This document shows, piece after piece, positions 708-43,655 of a stretch of DNA of 63,903 bases (positions within the stretch are counted from its first letter, which is position 1; every line of letters begins with the position of its first letter). Both the position numbers and the translations under genes were made by a program. Under the pieces are notes generated by a model, which saw only the letters and a list, made by a program, of their open reading frames with translations, was not told the DNA's origin and did not search any database. The DNA lies in contig NZ_JQEY01000016.1 of the NCBI RefSeq assembly GCF_000743715.1, positions 1 through 63,903 on the forward strand, given 5' to 3'. The DNA comes from Palleronia rufa. Its GTDB lineage: Bacteria > Pseudomonadota > Alphaproteobacteria > Rhodobacterales > Rhodobacteraceae.

Positions 708-2006
708 ATGACCAGGACAGGACTGCTTTCCGCGACGATTCTGGGCGCCGCGCTGGCGCTGAGCGCTCCGGCCGCCGCGCAGGACAAGCCAGAAAGCCTC
801 AAGATCGGCATCACCACGTTTCTGACCGGGCCGGCCTCGGTCTTCGGTGTGCCCGCCCGGGACGCGGCCGAGATGCTGATCGAACAGATCAATGCGGACG
901 GCGGCATCGGCGGTGTGCCGGTCGAAGCCAGCTTCATCGACGAGGGCGCGGGCGGCGAGGCGCTGACCACCGAATACCGCCGCCAGGTCGAAGACGAGGG
1001 CGCGGATGTCATGCTGGCCGCGATCTCCTCGGGCAACTGCACGCAGCTGGCCCCTCTGGCCGAAGATTTGCAGGTCATCAACCTGATGTGGGATTGCGGC
1101 ACCCAGCGGATCTTCGAGGAGGGCGACTACACCTACGTGTTCCGCACCCAGGCCAACGCCACCCCGGAGATGCTGGCCAGCGTCCTCTACCTGCTCCGGC
1201 AAAAGCCCGACTTCCAGACCATCGCCGTGGTGAATCAGGACTACGCCTGGGGGCGCGACAGCTGGGACATCTTCTCGACCGCGCTGAAGGCCCTGAAGCC
1301 GGACGTGGAAATCGTCGGAGAGTTCTTTCCGGCTTTCGGCGCGCCGGACTATTCCACGGAAATCTCACGCCTGTCGGCCATGCGGCCGGACGTGATTCTG
1401 TCCACCTCATGGGGCGGCGATCTGGATACGTTCGTGCAGCAGGCCGCGCAACGGGGACTGATGAACCAGTCCACCTTCGTGCTTCCGCTGGCGGAAAGCT
1501 CGCTGGAGCGGCTGGGCACTGCGCTGCCCGACGCCGTCATCGTCGGCGCGCGGGGCGACCACTATTTCCAGCACCCCGAAATGGTCGGCCAGGAGGGGTT
1601 CGACAGTTTCGTGGCCGATTTCCGCGATCGGACCGGCGCCTACCCGATCTATTCGGTCTTCCACATGGCGCAGGCCCTGTCGGCGCTGGAAGCGGCCTAT
1701 GAGACGGCCATCGAGCAGAACGGCGTAGAATGGCCGACGGAGGAACAGGTGATCGCCACTCTCGAAGGGATGGAGTTTCAAGGGTTCGGGCGGCCGGTGA
1801 CCATACGTGCGGATCACCAAGGCGTCGAGGCGCAGCTTCTGGGGACGACCACCACCGACAACGACCTCGGATTCGCTTCCCTGACCGATATCGCCATCTA
1901 CGACGGCGGGCCGCTGACGACCCCGGTTGGCGAGAATTCGATCGAATGGATCGAAGCGCTCGACCCGTCCTTCGTGGATCAGGTCACGCCGACGACCTTC
2001 GACTGA
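708..2006 (+). CDS. Branched-chain amino acid-type ABC transporter substrate-binding protein
   Basis: This is a periplasmic solute receptor of the LivJ/LivK (peripla_BP_6) family, 432 residues. It has a clear Sec signal peptide (MTRTGLLSATILGAALAL, cleavage expected after the Ala-rich AAAQ near residue 25). The following segment LKIGITTFLTGPASVFG is the family's first beta strand and ligand loop. The ATG is preceded by GGGAGG at a normal distance. It is the first gene of a five-gene transporter operon continued by an SDR and a hydratase. The substrate is not readable: the family carries branched-chain amino acids, amides, urea, aromatic acids and others. The co-transcribed enzymes hint at an organic acid. 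Confidence 0.9.
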   Translation: MTRTGLLSATILGAALALSAPAAAQDKPESLKIGITTFLTGPASVFGVPARDAAEMLIEQINADGGIGGVPVEASFIDEGAGGEALTTEYRRQVEDEGADVMLAAISSGNCTQLAPLAEDLQVINLMWDCGTQRIFEEGDYTYVFRTQANATPEMLASVLYLLRQKPDFQTIAVVNQDYAWGRDSWDIFSTALKALKPDVEIVGEFFPAFGAPDYSTEISRLSAMRPDVILSTSWGGDLDTFVQQAAQRGLMNQSTFVLPLAESSLERLGTALPDAVIVGARGDHYFQHPEMVGQEGFDSFVADFRDRTGAYPIYSVFHMAQALSALEAAYETAIEQNGVEWPTEEQVIATLEGMEFQGFGRPVTIRADHQGVEAQLLGTTTTDNDLGFASLTDIAIYDGGPLTTPVGENSIEWIEALDPSFVDQVTPTTFD

Positions 2007-2050
2007 TCCCGGACCCCCTGACCGGGACCGGACACCGAACCATGGCCGGC

Positions 2051-2073
2051 CCGCCCCCCCGGGGGGGGGGCGG
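2051..2073 (+). terminator. Very strong GC hairpin between the SBP and permease genes
   Basis: CCGCCCCCCC (2051-2060) is followed by three G and its perfect complement GGGGGGGCGG (2064-2073), a ten-pair stem with a three-base loop. It has no T-run after it. It sits in the 90-base gap between the receptor and the first permease, so it more likely blocks 3' exonucleases or partly attenuates transcription than ends it fully. The homopolymer runs could also hide a sequencing length error. Confidence 0.5.
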
Positions 2074-2096
2074 CCCCCGGGCGAAAGCAGGACCAC

Positions 2097-3002
2097 ATGA
2101 CCGGCGCGACCATCCTTTTGGCCATCTTCGACGGCGTCGCCTACGCGGCGCTGGTCTTCATGGTGGCGGTGGGGCTGACGCTGATCTTCGGCGTGCTCAG
2201 GATCCTCAACGTCGCCCACGGCTCGCTCTATGCCATCGGCGCGTATCTCACGGCATCTATCGGCGGTGCGATCTTCGCGATGGGCTGGTCGCCGGTGCTG
2301 GCCTTTCCGCTGATGCTGGTGTCGGCCGCGCTGGTGGGCGTCCTGCTGGGCGCACCGATGGAGCGGCTGCTCTTGCGGCGGATCTATCACCGGCCGGAGG
2401 TGCTGCAACTGCTGGTCACCTTCGCGGTGTTCATGATTCTTGAGGACGTGCAGCGCCTGGTCTGGGGCAACCAGCCCTATTTCGAAAGCTCGGCGCTCGC
2501 GCTTCTGGGCAATGTGCAGGTCTTCGGCGTCTATTACACCGTCTATCAGCTGATCCTGCTGCCGCTTGTGGCCATCGCCACACTGATCGGGCTGCGGCTC
2601 TTCCTGCGCCGGACCCTGACCGGCAAGCTCATCACCGCCGTGACCGAGGACCGCGAGGCCGCGCAATCCATCGGCATCGACGCCGACCGGGTCTATTTGC
2701 TGACCTTCGTTCTGGGCGCGGCCCTGGCCGGTCTGGGCGGCGCGCTGGCGTCTCCGACAACCTCCGTGCTGCCCGGGATCGGAGCAGAGATGATCGTGCT
2801 TTCTTTTGCCGTGGTCGCCACCGCGGGACTGGGCCAGATCGAGGGGGCCGCGCTGACCGCGCTGATGATCGGGCTGGGCCGGTCCTTCGCCGTCTATCTC
2901 TTCCCGGAGCTGCAGGTGCTGGTGCCGTACCTCATCATGCTCGCGGTCCTGCTGATCCGCCCCGAGGGGCTGTTCGGCAGCCCCGCGGCGCGCAAGATCT
3001 GA
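2097..3002 (+). CDS. livH: Branched-chain amino acid-type ABC permease (LivH-like)
   Basis: Inner-membrane permease of 301 residues, with about eight hydrophobic segments and the LivH hallmark near the N-terminus, GLTLIFGVLRILNVAHGSLYAIGAY (recognisable as the GLxLIxGxxxxxNxAHG pattern). The EAA-like cytoplasmic loop that contacts the ATPases is the DREAAQSIGIDADRVY region near residue 190. The start is ATG 2097, with an AGGA-type ribosome site just upstream. It pairs with the LivM-like protein 10 bases downstream to form the channel. The gene name describes the family, not a proven substrate. Confidence 0.9.
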   Translation: MTGATILLAIFDGVAYAALVFMVAVGLTLIFGVLRILNVAHGSLYAIGAYLTASIGGAIFAMGWSPVLAFPLMLVSAALVGVLLGAPMERLLLRRIYHRPEVLQLLVTFAVFMILEDVQRLVWGNQPYFESSALALLGNVQVFGVYYTVYQLILLPLVAIATLIGLRLFLRRTLTGKLITAVTEDREAAQSIGIDADRVYLLTFVLGAALAGLGGALASPTTSVLPGIGAEMIVLSFAVVATAGLGQIEGAALTALMIGLGRSFAVYLFPELQVLVPYLIMLAVLLIRPEGLFGSPAARKI

Positions 3003-3012
3003 GGTCCAGCAC

Positions 3013-3987
3013 ATGTCCGTCCGCCTGATCCTTCCAGCCCTTGCCATCGTCGCCCTGGCGCTGGTCCCGCCCCTGGCGCCATTCCTCCAGGTGCTGCTGA
3101 CGCTGGCCATGGCCAAGGGTATCGCGGTGATGGGTGTGACCCTGCTGCTCCGGGCCGGACAGGTCAGCTTCGGACACGCGCTGTTTTTCGGCATCGCCGC
3201 CTACGGGGCCGCGTTCCTTGCCGCCTCGCCGCTGGACGACCTGCTGCTGCTCTTGCTGGCGGGCGCGCTGGGCGCCGGGATCGCGGGGGTACTCGTGGGC
3301 CTGTTCGTGGTCCGCTACCGGGGTATCTTCTTCGGGATGCTGAACCTGGCGTTCTCGATGATCTTCTGGTCGATTCTGGAGAAGTTCTATTACGTCACCG
3401 GCGGCGCGGACGGGCTGCGCCTGCCGCGCCCGTCCGTCGCGTTCATCGAGATGGACCGAGGTCCCTATGAGGTGCTGCTTTACTATGCGTCGCTTCTGCT
3501 GGCCATCGCGCTCGGCTGGTTCGTCGTGCGGTTCCTTGCCAGCCCCGTGGGCCAGCTCTTCCAGACCGTCAAGACCAACGAGACGCGGCTGGAATACCTC
3601 GGCGTCTCGGCCCGGCGGACGCTGCTGAAGGGCTACGTGCTTTCGGCGGTGCTCTGCGGTGTCGGCGGCGTGCTGATGGCTGCTGCCCAAGGCATCGTGA
3701 CGCCCAGCTACGCCTACTGGATCCGGTCGGGGGAAATGGTGTTCATCGCCGTCCTGGGCGGGGCGGGGTCGGTCGTGGGCGCCTTCGCCGGGTCCATCGC
3801 CTATGAACTGGTGCGCAGCTACGCCGCCGCCTTCGCGGCCGATGCCTGGCAGATGGTGCTGGGCGGATTCCTGTTGGCCATCATCCTCTTCGCGCCGGGC
3901 GGTCTGGTGGGGATCTACGCGGCATTTGCCGACCGGATCGGGGCCAGGCGCGCCAAGTCCGCATCGAAGAAGGAGGCCGGGACATGA
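3013..3987 (+). CDS. livM: Branched-chain amino acid-type ABC permease (LivM-like)
   Basis: Second inner-membrane permease, 324 residues. It carries the LivM/LivH family signature GQVSFGHALFFGIAAYGAA (near residues 50-68) and a conserved loop ETRLEYLGVSARR that should dock on the ATPases. Many hydrophobic helices run from the N-terminus to near residue 305, followed by a short basic tail. Its stop overlaps the next start as ATGA (3984-3987), so the ATPase is probably translationally coupled. Confidence 0.9.
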   Translation: MSVRLILPALAIVALALVPPLAPFLQVLLTLAMAKGIAVMGVTLLLRAGQVSFGHALFFGIAAYGAAFLAASPLDDLLLLLLAGALGAGIAGVLVGLFVVRYRGIFFGMLNLAFSMIFWSILEKFYYVTGGADGLRLPRPSVAFIEMDRGPYEVLLYYASLLLAIALGWFVVRFLASPVGQLFQTVKTNETRLEYLGVSARRTLLKGYVLSAVLCGVGGVLMAAAQGIVTPSYAYWIRSGEMVFIAVLGGAGSVVGAFAGSIAYELVRSYAAAFAADAWQMVLGGFLLAIILFAPGGLVGIYAAFADRIGARRAKSASKKEAGT

Positions 3988-9833: not shown

Positions 9834-9878
9834 CTTCATCTTTCTATAAATATCCCGGGGTCTGGGGCAGAGCCCCAG
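9834..9878. repeat. Palindromic repeat element, copy 1, acting as convergent terminator
   Basis: This element begins CTTCATCTTTC and continues through AAATATCCCGGGG into a perfect hairpin CTGGGGC-AGA-GCCCCAG (9862-9878). On the minus strand the core reads CCCCGGGATATTT then GAAAGATGAAG, the same core found inside xdhB and xdhA. It lies between the convergent peroxidase and FG-GAP genes, 4 bases after the first stop and 13 bases before the second. It probably ends transcription from both sides. Confidence 0.75.
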
Positions 9879-38801: not shown

Positions 38802-39703
38802 CCGGCGATCCTTCTGGCATGCGCTGCGTCCTGCCGGGAGATGAGCGCGGCCGCGACGCCGATGGCGATGGCCTGCGGGTGCTTGCCCAGGGCCGGATCG
38901 CCGATCGGGCAGCGGATACGGGCGATGGCGTCGGATGCGTGACCCAGCGCGGCCAGTCTGCTGCGGAAACGCGCCCATTTCGTGGCCGATCCGATCAGCC
39001 CGACAGAGGCGACACCCGCCGTCAGCAATGCATGGCAGAGCGCAAGGTCGATGTCATGGGAATGTGTCAGGATCACGTGGTGGCTTTCGGGACCGGCGCG
39101 CCGGGCGATAATCTCTGGCCGGGCGGCGTCCAGACGCGTGACCCCTGCCGGTATGTGATCTGGGAACTTGCCGGGCAGATCGACCCACAGGATCGCGACG
39201 TCCGGCATCGGGGCCAGCACCGCGACGAGCGCACGGCCCACATGCCCCGCCCCCCAGACGGTGATCGGCAGTGCCGGGTCCGCGGTGGATTCCAGAACGA
39301 AGCCGTCGATGACCCGCGGAAGCGGCCCGGTCGGGTCGCAAAGCGCGGCGCGGACGGCGTCGGTCGGCGCGCCGGGGCCGTGCGCGCAGACCCCGGTGCC
39401 GGTATGAAGTGGGGTGTCCTCGGTCCAGCGCGACAGGTGCAGCGTCACCGACCCGCCGCAGCATTGCCCCAGCGATGGGCCCAGCGCGACCGTGCGCAGC
39501 CCGGTCCTGTCGTCCCGTGCCGCCGCGGATGCCTCCCACTCCAGCCGGCCGCCTCCGATCGTCCCGTCCTGCCCGTCGCCCCAGACGAACATCGCCGTGC
39601 CGGCCTGGCGCGGCACGGATCCACGGGTATCCAGGATTAGCACCCGCCAGACCACCGGGTGATCCCGCAACAGCGACCGCAGCCGGGAGGCATCGAAGCT
39701 CAT
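38798..39703 (-). CDS. xdhC: Xanthine dehydrogenase accessory protein XdhC
   Basis: A 301-residue chaperone that binds molybdenum cofactor, helps sulfurate it, and inserts it into XdhB. The XdhC start WRVLILDTRGSVPRQAGTAMFVW, TIGGGRLEWEA and the CCGGSVTLHLSRW motif are visible; the C-terminal half is a Rossmann domain (VWGAGHVGRALVAVL and LTHSHDIDLALCHALL). The start overlaps xdhB as ATGA, and its own stop overlaps the ABC ATPase start. The order A-B-C then transporter suggests one transcript for purine oxidation and uptake. Confidence 0.92.
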   Translation of the reverse strand: MSFDASRLRSLLRDHPVVWRVLILDTRGSVPRQAGTAMFVWGDGQDGTIGGGRLEWEASAAARDDRTGLRTVALGPSLGQCCGGSVTLHLSRWTEDTPLHTGTGVCAHGPGAPTDAVRAALCDPTGPLPRVIDGFVLESTADPALPITVWGAGHVGRALVAVLAPMPDVAILWVDLPGKFPDHIPAGVTRLDAARPEIIARRAGPESHHVILTHSHDIDLALCHALLTAGVASVGLIGSATKWARFRSRLAALGHASDAIARIRCPIGDPALGKHPQAIAIGVAAALISRQDAAHARRIAG

Positions 39704-42168
39704 CCCGCGGCCCTCCGGCAGGCGGCCAGGACCCTTTCGGGCGTCGCCGGCGCGTCGAGCGCCGGATAGACCGGCCCGCAGGCGGCGCATGCGTCCGACA
39801 GCGCCATCAGCACCGAGATCCCCAGCATCAGCGGCGGCTCGCCCACGGCCTTCGAGCGGTAGATCGTGTCGGCCTGGTTCTCGGCGTCCCAGATGGCGAC
39901 GTTGAAGACCGGCGGGCGGTCGGAGCAGGCCGGGATCTTGTAGGTCGAGGGTGCGTGTGTCGAGAGCCGCCCGGCCGCGTCCCAGACCAGTTCCTCGGTG
40001 GTCAGCCAGCCGGCGCCCTGGACGTACCCGCCCTCGATCTGGCCCATGTCGATGGCCGGGTTCAGCGACCGGCCGCAGTCGTGCAGGATGTCGGTGCGCA
40101 GGATGCGGTTCTCGCCGGTGCGTGTGTCCGCCGCCACTTCGGTCACGGCCGCGCCATGGGCGAAATAGAAGAACGGCGTGCCGCGGCCTCGGATCCGGTC
40201 CCATTCGATGCCGGGCGTGGCGTAGAAGCCGGTGGCCGACAGGCTGACCCGGCCCTGATAGGCCAGTTCCACCGCGCGCGCGAAGGGCATCGCTTCGGTG
40301 CCGACACGGACCTTGCCGTCCTCGAACACCACGCCGGCAGGGTCGGCCTGGTGCAACTCTGCCAGGAACGCACCGATCCGGTCACGGATCGTGTCGCAGG
40401 CGATGCGCACGGCCATGCCGTTCAGATCCGCGCCGGACGACGCCGCCGTGGCGCTGGTGTTGGGAACCTTGCCGGTGTCGGTCGCGGTGATGCGGACGCG
40501 GCCGGTGTCGATGCCGAAACGGTCGGCCGCGACCTGTGCCACCTTGCGATGCAGCCCCTGGCCCATCTCGGTCCCGCCGTGGTTCAGTTGCACGGACCCG
40601 TCCTGATAGACATGCACCAGCGCGCCGGCCTGATTCAGATGGGTCAGCGTGAAGGAAATCCCGAACTTCACGGGCGTCAGGGCGATGCCGCGCTTTATTC
40701 CGGAATGCGTCGCGTTCCAGGCCGCGATCGCCGTCCGGCGTGCCATGTAGTCCGATGTCTCTGCCAGCCGGTCGACCATTCCGCCCAGGATGAAATCGGT
40801 CACCGGCATGTGATAGGGTGTCGTCTGCACGCCCGACGGGACAGCGGCCACCGGGCCGTCCGGCTCGGCCATCTCGTGCAGCGCGCCGCGGCTGGCGATG
40901 TCGCCCTCCCCCTCTACCGCCGTCTCGGCACCCACGTGCCCTTTCATCTTTCCCGAAATATCCTCGGGGGGGCGGGCTTGCCCGCGGGGGGCGGACAGCC
41001 CCCTTCTGGCCTCCGTTCCCGGCGCAGCGTCGGCATAGAAGTTCGTCCGCCGCACCGCCAGCGGATCGAGATCCAGCCGATGCGCGATTTCGTCCATGAC
41101 CCGCTCGATCCCCACCATCCCCTGCGGCCCGCCGAAGCCGCGGAAGGCGGTGGCGGACTGCGTGTTCGTCCTGAGACGGTGCGACACGATGCGCGCGTGG
41201 GTCAGGTGGTAGGCGTTGTCGGCATGGAGCATCGCGCGGTCGGCCACGGGCAGGGACAGGTCCTGGCTCCAGCCGCACCGGCAGAACTGTTCGAACGCAA
41301 TGGCCTCGATCCTGCCGCGGCGGTCGAAGCCCACGTCGTAGGCGATGCGGAAATCGTGGCGCTTGCCGGTGATGGTCATGTCGTCGTCGCGGTCATAGCG
41401 CATCTTGGCGGGTCGGCCCGTGGCGGCCGCGACCATCGCGCAGGCCACTGCCAGCGCGTTGCCCTGGCTTTCCTTGCCGCCGAACCCGCCGCCCATGCGG
41501 CGCATTTCGACCCGGACCATGTGCATGGGCACGCCCAGCGCCTCGGCCACCTTGTGCTGGATCTCGGTCGGGTGCTGGGACGAACTCATCACCACCATCT
41601 CGCCGCCCTCTCCGGGCAGCGCCAGCGCCGCCTGCCCTTCGAGGTAGAAATGCTCCTGCCCGCCGATCTCCACCCGGCCGGACAAGCGGTGCGGCGCTTG
41701 CGCCAGAGCGCCGTCGGGGTCGCCCTTCTGGTAGGTGCGGGGGCCGTCCTCGAAGATCCAGCCCGCCGACAGCGCGTCGTCGATCGACAGGACCGGAGGC
41801 TCTTCGGCGATCTCCGGGCCGACAAGCCGCGCGGCCCGGCGGGCCGCCAGATGGCTGGTGGCCGCGATCAGGGCGAGGGGCTGGCCCATGTAGTGGACCG
41901 CGCCATCGGCGAGCAGCGGCTCGTCATGGGCCGATGGCGACACGTCCGCCGGGCGCGGCAGGTCGCTCCAGCCCCAGGCCAGCGCCACGCCGGGCGCGGC
42001 ACGGGCGGGCCCCAGATCGGGCGGGGTCAGGGTTCCGCGCGCCTTGGGCGAGAGGGCGAAGGCCAGGTGCAGCGTGCCCGGCGGCACGGCAATGTCGTCC
42101 ACGTAGCGCGCCTGCCCGGTGACATGGAGCGCGGCACTGTCATGGGGGAGGGGGGTGGCAACGCTCAT
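39700..42168 (-). CDS. xdhB: Xanthine dehydrogenase molybdopterin subunit XdhB, with an in-frame palindromic insert
   Basis: An 822-residue molybdenum hydroxylase large subunit. [23 protein letters not shown] is the start. Mo-site motifs are [35 protein letters not shown] and, near the end, [12 protein letters not shown] with the catalytic Glu. It converts hypoxanthine/xanthine to urate with XdhA. The protein is about 50-60 residues longer than expected; the excess follows NFYADAAPG near residue 380 and is encoded by the palindromic element at 40942-41003 plus adjoining DNA. ATGA overlaps join it to xdhA and xdhC. Confidence 0.93.
40942..41003 (-). repeat. Palindromic repeat element, copy 2, in frame inside xdhB
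   Basis: Read on the minus (coding) strand: hairpin GGGGGC-TGTCC-GCCCCC (41003-40987), hairpin GCGGGC-AA-GCCCGC (40985-40972), then a CCCCC-rich stretch, GAGGATATTTC and GGGAAAGATGAA. The order of two hairpins plus a GGATATTT...GAAAGATGAA core matches the copy in xdhA. In the protein it reads roughly [19 protein letters not shown] then KMKG. It sits in the same orientation as the gene. Confidence 0.8.
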
Positions 42169-43655
42169 GCGCGCACCTCCAGGATGGCCGGACCGCGGTC
42201 TGCCAGCCGGGCCACCATGCCGCGCGCGGCAGCCAGCCGGTAGTCGGCCGATGCACGCATGTCCGACAGGGGCGCGAAATCGCGCTCCAGCGCCGCCTGC
42301 GCGGCGGCGACGCCCTCCGCGGTCAGCGGCTGGCCGATCAGCGCGGCTTCGGTCTTTGTCGCGCGTTTCGGCGTGCCGGCCATTCCCCCGAAGGCGATCC
42401 GTGCGTCGGTCACGGTGCCGTCGGCGGCGGCGACGTTGAAGCAGCCGCAGACGGCCGAGATGTCCTGGTCGAAGCGTTTCGACAGTTTCTGGCAGGTCAG
42501 CCGGTCGGGCTGGCGGGGAAGGGTGACACGCTCGACGAATTCGCCGGGCCTGCGGTCCTGCTTGCCGTATTCCAGAAAGAAGTGTTCGAGCGGCAAACGG
42601 CGCCGGTCCGGGCCCCGTCGCAGGTGCAGGGTGGCGCCGAGCGCGATCAGGGCGGGCGGGGTGTCGCCGATGGGCGATCCGTTGGCGATATTGCCGCCGA
42701 CGGTGGCGGCATTGCGCACCTGGGTCGATCCGTAGCGGCGGATCAGCTCGGCGAACGACGGATGATGCGGGGCGATGGCGGCGCGCAGATCGCTGAGGGT
42801 GGCGCAGGCGCCGATGCGGATCTCCCTGTCGGTGACGGTGATCGTCCGCAGATCTGCGATGCCGCCCAGAAAACAGACCGGCCCGAGATCGCGCAACCCC
42901 TTTGTCACCCAAAGGCCCACATCGGTGGCGCCGGCGATGAGGGTCGCGTCGGGGTTCTCCGTGTACCAATCGGCCAGATCGTCGGCGGAGGAGGGGCGGA
43001 ACGCGTCCTGCGGCGCACCGGTGTCGCCGTCGGTGTCGGCCCCCGTCGCGGAAACCGGATCGCGGCCGCCCCATCCTGCGGCGGGGGCGTCGGATGGGCG
43101 CGGGGGGCGCTGCCCCCCGTCCGGCGCTGCCGGACTCCCCCCGGGATATTTGGAGAAAGATGAAGTCAGCGGGGTATCATGCATCCAGGCGGGAACGGGC
43201 AGCGCTTCGGCGGCCCGGGCGGCGCGGACGATGGGAGCGTAGCCGGTGCAGCGGCAGAGGTTGCCGGCGAGCTGGTCGTCGTGATCGGTGGCACCGTTCA
43301 GGTGCGCGGTGGCCATGGCGACGACGAACCCCGGCGTGCAGAAGCCGCACTGGCTGCCGTGATGGTCGATCATGGCCGATTGCACGGGGTGAAGAGCGCC
43401 GTCCGGACCGCCGATCCCTTCGACCGTGCGGATCGCCTGGCCGTCGAGCTGGCCCATGAACAGGATGCAGGCGTTGAGCGCGCGAGCGCCGGCGGCGTCG
43501 GTGAGCATGACCGAGCAGGCGCCGCAATCGCCTTCGTTGCAGCCCTCCTTGGTGCCGGTAAGTCCGCGCATCTCGCGCAGCCAGTCGAGCAAGGTCGTCG
43601 TGGGGGCGATCTCTGTCGTGACGGCTGCGCCGTTCAGTTTGAATCTGACCTTCAT
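42165..43655 (-). CDS. xdhA: Xanthine dehydrogenase iron-sulfur/FAD subunit XdhA, with an in-frame palindromic insert
   Basis: A 496-residue small subunit. The first [2Fe-2S] site is [13 protein letters not shown] (about 39-51) with a distal Cys at CILF; the second is CGFCTPGFV with CRCTGY. The FAD domain starts after about residue 210 ([37 protein letters not shown]). It passes electrons from the Mo site to NAD. The linker between the two domains is extended by about 45 residues, [20 protein letters not shown] onward, encoded by the palindromic repeat at 43102-43165. MKVRFKLNG at ATG 43655 is the normal start. First gene of a seven-or-more gene minus-strand unit. Confidence 0.92.
43102..43165 (+). 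repeat. Palindromic repeat element, copy 3, in frame inside xdhA (antisense)
   Basis: On the plus strand: perfect hairpin GGGGGGC-GCT-GCCCCCC (43102-43118), perfect hairpin TCCGGC-GCT-GCCGGA (43120-43134), then CCCCCCGGGATATTT and GAAAGATGAAG (43135-43165). The layout is that of the xdhB copy, but the element faces the opposite way to the gene. The coding strand reads it as a Pro/Gly/Arg-rich linker. Confidence 0.8.

Follow-up and report, generated by a model that had tools for sequence, protein, structure and literature searches.

A short repeat with genome-specific tail spellings lies in frame within enzyme genes of Palleronia rufa and other Rhodobacteraceae

Two xanthine dehydrogenase genes lie on the minus strand of the window, by which we mean the whole 63,903-nt stretch of Palleronia rufa DNA that was analysed: xdhB (39700..42168), which encodes the molybdenum subunit of 822 aa, and xdhA (42168..43655; 496 codons translated), which encodes the iron-sulfur/FAD subunit. 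Within xdhB, on the same strand, a 62-nt repeat copy (40942..41003) is read as protein, contributing a 20-residue peptide in frame, as the first-pass annotation had proposed. Read from the sequence, it comprises a first hairpin with the stem GGGGGC/GCCCCC (40987..41003) and a second hairpin, GCGGG-CAAG-CCCGC (40972..40985); core search places its tail, GATATTTCGGGAAAGATGAA, at 40943..40962, spelled in the dialect of this genome. The same core had also been pointed out between genes on the minus strand at 9834..9878, and this too is a real copy, made of a hairpin CTGGGGC..GCCCCAG and the tail GATATTTATAGAAAGATGAA, with the core (9835-9854) beginning 37 nt past the end of the called gene that lies upstream in the orientation of the element. 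A third copy, absent from the first-pass annotation, runs antisense to xdhA on the plus strand (43102..43164), with its tail, GATATTTGGAGAAAGATGAA, found by core search at 43145..43164. The gene strand reads this copy as a 23-residue peptide, which is placed by Pfam in the linker between the Fer2_2 and FAD_binding_5 domains. The 20-nt core GATATTTnnnGAAAGATGAA has three exact matches in the window vs 0.01 expected from 100 shuffles. A shorter pattern, CCCCGGGATATTT, gives three matches in the window at up to two mismatches vs 1.25 expected and is not significant alone, and a pattern variant with a 4-nt spacer is matched once in the genome and nowhere in the window.

The xdhB copy sits between two molybdenum-cofactor domains, both of which are detected by Pfam (stretches 145-377 and 468-752). 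In an AlphaFold model of XdhB based on 15 sequences, which is weak overall (mean pLDDT 62.7), pLDDT is below 50 for residues 383-443 and 23-29 for residues 391-440, but low elsewhere too, so that the values of the loop are consistent with a disordered linker. The extra peptide is most likely neutral and of this disordered kind.

The core is repeated throughout the 3.85-Mb genome (G000 in the comparisons below), with 55 matches at up to two mismatches (44 exact, eight with one mismatch and three with two) vs none for the same pattern read backwards; the first-pass annotation would have been refuted by a core confined to the two places named, and it withstands this test. Our own gene caller, a codon model and not a curated annotation, places six copies inside genes and 49 between them, the latter in tandem sense (20), convergent (17), tandem antisense (9) and divergent (3) contexts; an alternative training set of the caller gives 19, 18, 8 and 4 for these classes and again six inside, and a stricter test leaves five inside. 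A gene in the same direction lies upstream of 37 of the 49 intergenic copies, and the core often stands 30-60 nt past its end. The six in-gene copies are found in xdhB, in xdhA (antisense), in the gene of a CobN-type cobaltochelatase (cobN), in that of a geranylgeranyl-reductase-like protein (bchP), in that of a protein with BchB-type domains (bchB), and in one antisense C-terminal extension (L060). The name bchP presumably applies, being given from homology; the Pfam match of the product to the geranylgeranyl-reductase domain is below the cut-off. All four sense copies (xdhB, cobN, bchP and bchB) read DISGKM, and the copies of XdhB, XdhA and BchB are located between Pfam domains. In relatives, copies called inside genes amount to 2 of 70 in G004, 3 of 35 in G003 and 1 of 47 in G016, the calls for L182 (G003) and L210 (G016) being provisional; the counts miss any in-gene copy with a tail that ends otherwise than in GAAG.

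Several further arrangements were observed in P. rufa. In the extension at L060 (around 4001), read by hand, the antisense copy gives the last residues of the gene, ADLHLSGNIPGSGAEPQRDPAAD, and then the stop. Tail-to-tail inverted pairs about 30 nt apart occur at L036:4001/4029, L061:4001/4034 and L067:2876/2908, and the nearly identical flanks of the L036 and L067 pairs perhaps reflect a duplicated region. At L054, L039 and L064:12596, half of the hairpin is tandemly repeated just before the tail, in CGTTCGGGGCGCTGCC-like units numbering from at least two to five copies. At L032, L043, L045, L047:4001, L048 (two copies) and L068:4001, the caller places the start of the downstream gene at the ATG of the tail (GATGAA), so that such genes may take their start codon or N-terminal residues from the tail.

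The general layout of the family is one or two GC-rich hairpins, sometimes none, and then a directional tail of 20 nt, xxTATTTnnn[5-mer]GAWGAA. It is this tail, and not the palindrome emphasized in the first-pass annotation, that is the fixed, conserved unit of the element. Within the 12 nt upstream of the tail, a CCCC run occurs in 46 of 55 copies of G000, 38 of 70 of G004, 22 of 35 of G003 and 3 of 47 of G016, whose copies usually have another, GCCTCCGGCGG-like stem. Other copies of G004 look like a tail alone, some of them directly after ordinary terminators, which weakens the case for the hairpin as the mobile part. Within the tail, the nnn spacer is variable, with mostly G or A as its third base, and no consistent complementarity of the prefix or the spacer with the 5-mer was seen by eye. 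Folding of the 52 nt that precede the tail gives a median energy of -29.2 kcal/mol vs -17.8 kcal/mol in control stretches; corrected for composition, the effect is modest (median z of -0.9 for the G000 copies vs 0.17 for controls). A T-run of four within 12 nt before the tail is found in 0 of 55 (G000), 2 of 70 (G004), 1 of 35 (G003) and 0 of 47 (G016) copies, and the tail itself contains TATTT. The sense copies within genes, together with the lack of a T-run after the hairpin, led us to reject an intrinsic terminator. The element does not correspond to an Rfam family either: no match at gathering score was obtained in the window, and in 20 more of about 190 loci the sole match was to 5_ureB_sRNA, which lies outside the element. 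That match (L190:1167-1454, in G016) is far above the cut-off, with a repeat copy about 1 kb away. An unsystematic look around the copies noticed neither a target duplication nor a sharp 5' end.

Relatives were searched with the loose pattern RNTATTTNNNNNNNGRNGAAG, to which the genomes holding the family have 6 to 126 matches. The spelling of the tail differs between genomes, although some close relatives have one in common: it is GATATTTnnnGAAAGATGAA in G000, GGTATTTnnnCAAGGATGAAG in G003, AGTATTTnnnGACAGATGAAG in both G007 and G011, GGTATTTnnnGAACGATGAAG in G009, AGTATTTnnnCAACGAAGAAG in G023 and GGTATTTnnnCCAAGAAGAAG in G033. Some genomes contain several discrete families, in which the prefix and the 5-mer are locked to each other. 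Among the 76 listed of the 126 copies of G015, the prefix GA goes with GACAG in 32 of 32 cases, AG with CAGAG in 23 of 23 and GG with CCAAG in 17 of 21; likewise, in the 54 copies of G018, the two pairings of prefix and 5-mer hold in 30 of 30 and 23 of 23 cases, with one outlier. In 24 genomes that belong to the class and lie outside the family, a related pattern is matched once per genome at most, and so is its reversed control. Many Rhodobacteraceae carry the small repeat in a genome-specific spelling, mostly between genes and sometimes within enzyme genes.

The first-pass annotation had expected the extra segment to be absent from most XdhB homologues, an expectation contradicted by the orthologues themselves. 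In the interval between NFY and QTTPYH, a tail with up to two mismatches to RRTATTTNNNNNNNGRNGAA is recognisable in 25 of 40 distinct XdhB orthologues, vs 9 of 108,233 windows under the same test elsewhere in those xdhB genes, and the site is therefore an old or repeatedly used one. Since 24 of the 25 tails are in one frame (the exception being L095, from G004), one old insertion is favoured over recurrent ones. The shortest loops have 8-11 residues, so the site can do without the segment. The loop peptides vary with the dialect (ISGKMK, ISTTKK, ISRQMK, GYLEKGE), ISxKxK-like versions being recurrent. The best PDB match is 1jro chain B, which we take to be the Rhodobacter capsulatus protein, and its deposited sequence has ERGGLSAPPSPPEPIATKK at this loop, which looks like the same kind of peptide. 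In the linker of xdhA, an antisense tail is found in 14 of 30 rows (12 of 28 if L071/L085 and L072/L086, equal in tail and loop length, are counted as the duplicates they apparently are), vs 2 of 40,656 control windows. These tails lie in three reading frames, which indicates that the linker was probably hit more than once. In G010 (L087), the sole pattern match looks like chance and both the XdhB and XdhA loops are devoid of a tail, as if in-gene copies decayed where the family is gone. The XdhB loop of G018 (L102) contains an AT-rich hairpin, GATTTTTCGACGAAAAATC, without a tail, and a similar hairpin is present in some copies of G000.

In-gene copies mostly carry the dialect of their own genome; neither the dialects nor this agreement had been part of the first-pass annotation. 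In a permutation test that ignores phylogeny, and with dialect tables that rest on the copies listed, the XdhB tail equals the host dialect exactly in 10 of 17 genomes vs a permuted mean of 1.0, with 0 of 100,000 permutations reaching 10; the XdhA tail does so in 6 of 6 genomes, a value reached by 145 of 100,000 permutations. This test covers genomes with a recognisable tail and leaves aside G008 and G012, whose host prefixes are not listed, as well as G013 and G034, which have no listed host copies. Once the prefix is disregarded and G008 and G012 are added, the agreement is 11 of 18 for XdhB and 7 of 8 for XdhA, the XdhA tail of G012 being off by one. The XdhB tail departs from the host dialect by one mismatch in G003, G006 and G025, two in G009, five in G029 and six in G019 and G032; host copies are partly listed for G009, G015 and G019, and those of G029 are unlisted and seemingly have another prefix. 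At the cobN site, G000 and G003 have tails in their own dialects and G006 has AAAGGGTGA, its own. In G015, the cobN tail (AG..CAGAA) is one letter from the second dialect of that genome, and the XdhA and XdhB copies have the first. A mismatch is seen in G001, with GACGG in cobN vs GAAAG in its listed copies. The cobN site is empty in G012 and G005, holds at most a relic in G009 and is not comparable in G002.

Orthologous sites are shared between genomes. For 12 of the 55 copies of G000, at 11 sites, a gene next to the copy or enclosing it matches one at a copy of G004, vs about three gene matches expected at random. In six of these pairs the genes on both sides match, and two pairs share the host gene (bchB and xdhA), the xdhB site being common as well. 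Between G000 and G003 there are five matching copies, vs 1.4 expected. Two of them share the host gene (cobN and bchP), a third has matching genes on both sides, and for another the neighbour is at a different position; the xdhA and xdhB sites are again common to both genomes. With G016, which belongs to another genus, three copies match, two of them on both flanks, and this is not above the rough expectation of 2.2. Chance-like hits were omitted from the fetched regions (C12:90198, C25:19203, C62:300513 and C63:242021 in G004; C11:547809 and C31:276995 in G003; C1:89233 and C1:2047087 in G016). At shared sites the dialect differs, and often the type of hairpin does too.

In bchP, the copy is a discrete block added relative to relatives. 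The stretch concerned measures 52 aa in G000 and 45 aa, with hairpin and tail, in G003; it has 40 aa in G002 and G006, which retain a tail-only relic with no hairpin, 33 aa in G001, and 28-30 aa in G004, G007-G011, G013 and G014. G003 and G006 have the tail end at one and the same 3' junction, ahead of the YDP codons, and differ in dialect, which points to the insertion of a unit followed by overwriting in place. In the XdhB tree, G006, G000, G009, G003 and G012 form one clade (100/99), and G002 is outside the sampled tree. The simple reading of this clade would be one gain in bchP in its ancestor and a loss in G009; independent insertions at one hot spot are a possible alternative.

Protein-coding palindromes are, reportedly, presented in the title of a 2002 paper, cited in PMC10969869, as a unique feature of Rickettsia. 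The likeness to Rickettsia palindromic elements (RPE) that the first-pass annotation had drawn survives insofar as a dispersed hairpin repeat lies in frame in conserved genes of an alphaproteobacterium other than Rickettsia, and has to be given up insofar as the repeat is not peculiar to this XdhB. RPE have been described as small repeats with a palindrome that occur both in intergenic DNA and as in-frame parts of conserved protein genes (PMC2229807, PMC10969869), with a length of 105-146 bp and long stem-loops (PMC2229807). Going by these descriptions, in-frame insertion in protein genes is found in both, whereas the element of the Rhodobacteraceae is about 45-65 nt long, combines short hairpins with a directional tail of 20 nt whose dialect depends on the lineage, and is intragenic in only 6 of 55 copies.

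The GTAG and CGTC REPs are described as hairpins at gene 3' ends, in tandem and convergent contexts, with paired copies and some copies in genes, and two Xanthomonas species are reported to have different REPs at approximately one and the same site of recB; CGTC REPs are said in the same account to have no dedicated transposase (PMC3733652). The present element resembles REPs in its hairpins, its location at gene 3' ends, its paired copies, the presence of some copies in genes and its tandem and convergent, rarely divergent, contexts (3 of 55, or 4 of 55 with the other training set). It differs from them in that the consensus of 55, 70, 35 and 47 copies in four genomes has a long tail instead of a GTAG or CGTC tag, in that, compared with GTAG REPs, no Y1 transposase is found in G000, and in that its dialects match the host at orthologous in-gene sites across genera. 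The DNA uptake sequences (DUS) of Neisseriaceae, as portrayed in PMC3630211, are short and directional, with a spelling fixed per lineage and occasionally two dialects per genome; lineage dialects, intragenic copies and inverted pairs are common to both systems. On the other hand, DUS occur in thousands of copies vs 55 in G000 and 6 to 126 in relatives, unit-length insertion is seen here, and any receptor of the present tails would be a putative one. Among open-licence PMC papers, no earlier report of the element was found for Rhodobacter, Rhodobacteraceae, Rhodobacterales or Alphaproteobacteria. As far as these accounts go, coding palindromes (RPE), REPs inside genes and one recB pair of different REPs (PMC3733652) are known already; the 20-nt tail dialects by lineage, mostly matched by in-gene copies, are new.

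The explanation that we favour, with somewhat better than even confidence, is that of a non-autonomous, REP- or RPE-like interspersed family of the Rhodobacteraceae, whose copies entered tolerant loops and were subsequently overwritten in a concerted manner. A unit of hairpin and tail would insert and spread through a putative trans-acting activity; where an insertion fell in a tolerant linker and left the frame intact, it would survive as extra peptide, and old copies would be overwritten by the current dialect of the genome, via gene conversion or replacement. The search for a Y1 transposase (PF01797), positive in 5 of 14 control genomes, gave 0 matches in G000; a RAYT/Y1 transposase was accordingly discarded as the mobiliser, and its absence counts against the mobile family. 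The main rival holds that the tails are words recognised by a trans-acting DNA-binding protein and evolving together with it, as DUS do with ComP, the dialect shifting with the receptor and the hairpins being incidental terminators. Lineage dialects, of which some genomes have several, speak for this rival, as do a conserved tail that may stand without a hairpin or after an ordinary terminator, and inverted pairs; DUS, moreover, are described with dialects, intragenic copies and an association with terminators (PMC3630211). We nevertheless consider this rival unlikely, given the 6 to 126 matches per genome vs 1543 to 3770 for DUS (PMC3630211) and the unit-length insertion of hairpin and tail in bchP, which is unlike the turnover of single sites.

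A role at the RNA level appears more improbable still. An RNA 3'-end element (a terminator, a stabiliser or a nuclease site) standing after genes and occasionally trapped in coding sequence would fit the intergenic copies downstream of genes in the same direction, with the core often 30-60 nt away, and the more stable folding of the upstream 52 nt; however, one would expect the message to be cleaved or terminated at the sense copies in xdhB, cobN, bchP and bchB, at most two copies in any of the four genomes have a T-run before the tail, the fold z is modest, and discrete dialects would be superfluous. The lowest probability, a very small one, goes to the already disfavoured notion that old insertions were inherited vertically under selection on the peptide, an ISGKMK-like linker, with no concerted process: the single frame of nearly all XdhB tails and the recurrence of ISxKxK-like peptides speak for it, but the peptides vary with the dialect, the XdhA tails occupy three frames, and intergenic copies at shared sites differ in dialect likewise.

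The interspersed family that we favour brings coding repeats to many genomes of another alphaproteobacterial family, in metabolic enzymes and at the same sites across genera, with a spelling that is mostly that of the host. It lends itself to a natural test of the way in which a bacterial genome homogenises its short repeats, and gives a starting point for finding the factor that would read the tail. Since 1jro chain B apparently contains such a peptide, its structural effect could be looked up, and an adaptive reading of insertions or loops in these enzymes needs a check for the repeat first. More tentatively, and with a chance that we put a little short of even, the family may represent a new class of dialect-bearing mobile repeat, with a putative recognising machine, that rewrites its own old copies, so that parts of enzymes would evolve by concerted evolution at the DNA level and not by protein selection. 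If this is true, parts of xanthine dehydrogenase, cobaltochelatase, geranylgeranyl reductase and protochlorophyllide reductase would have been shaped by such a process.
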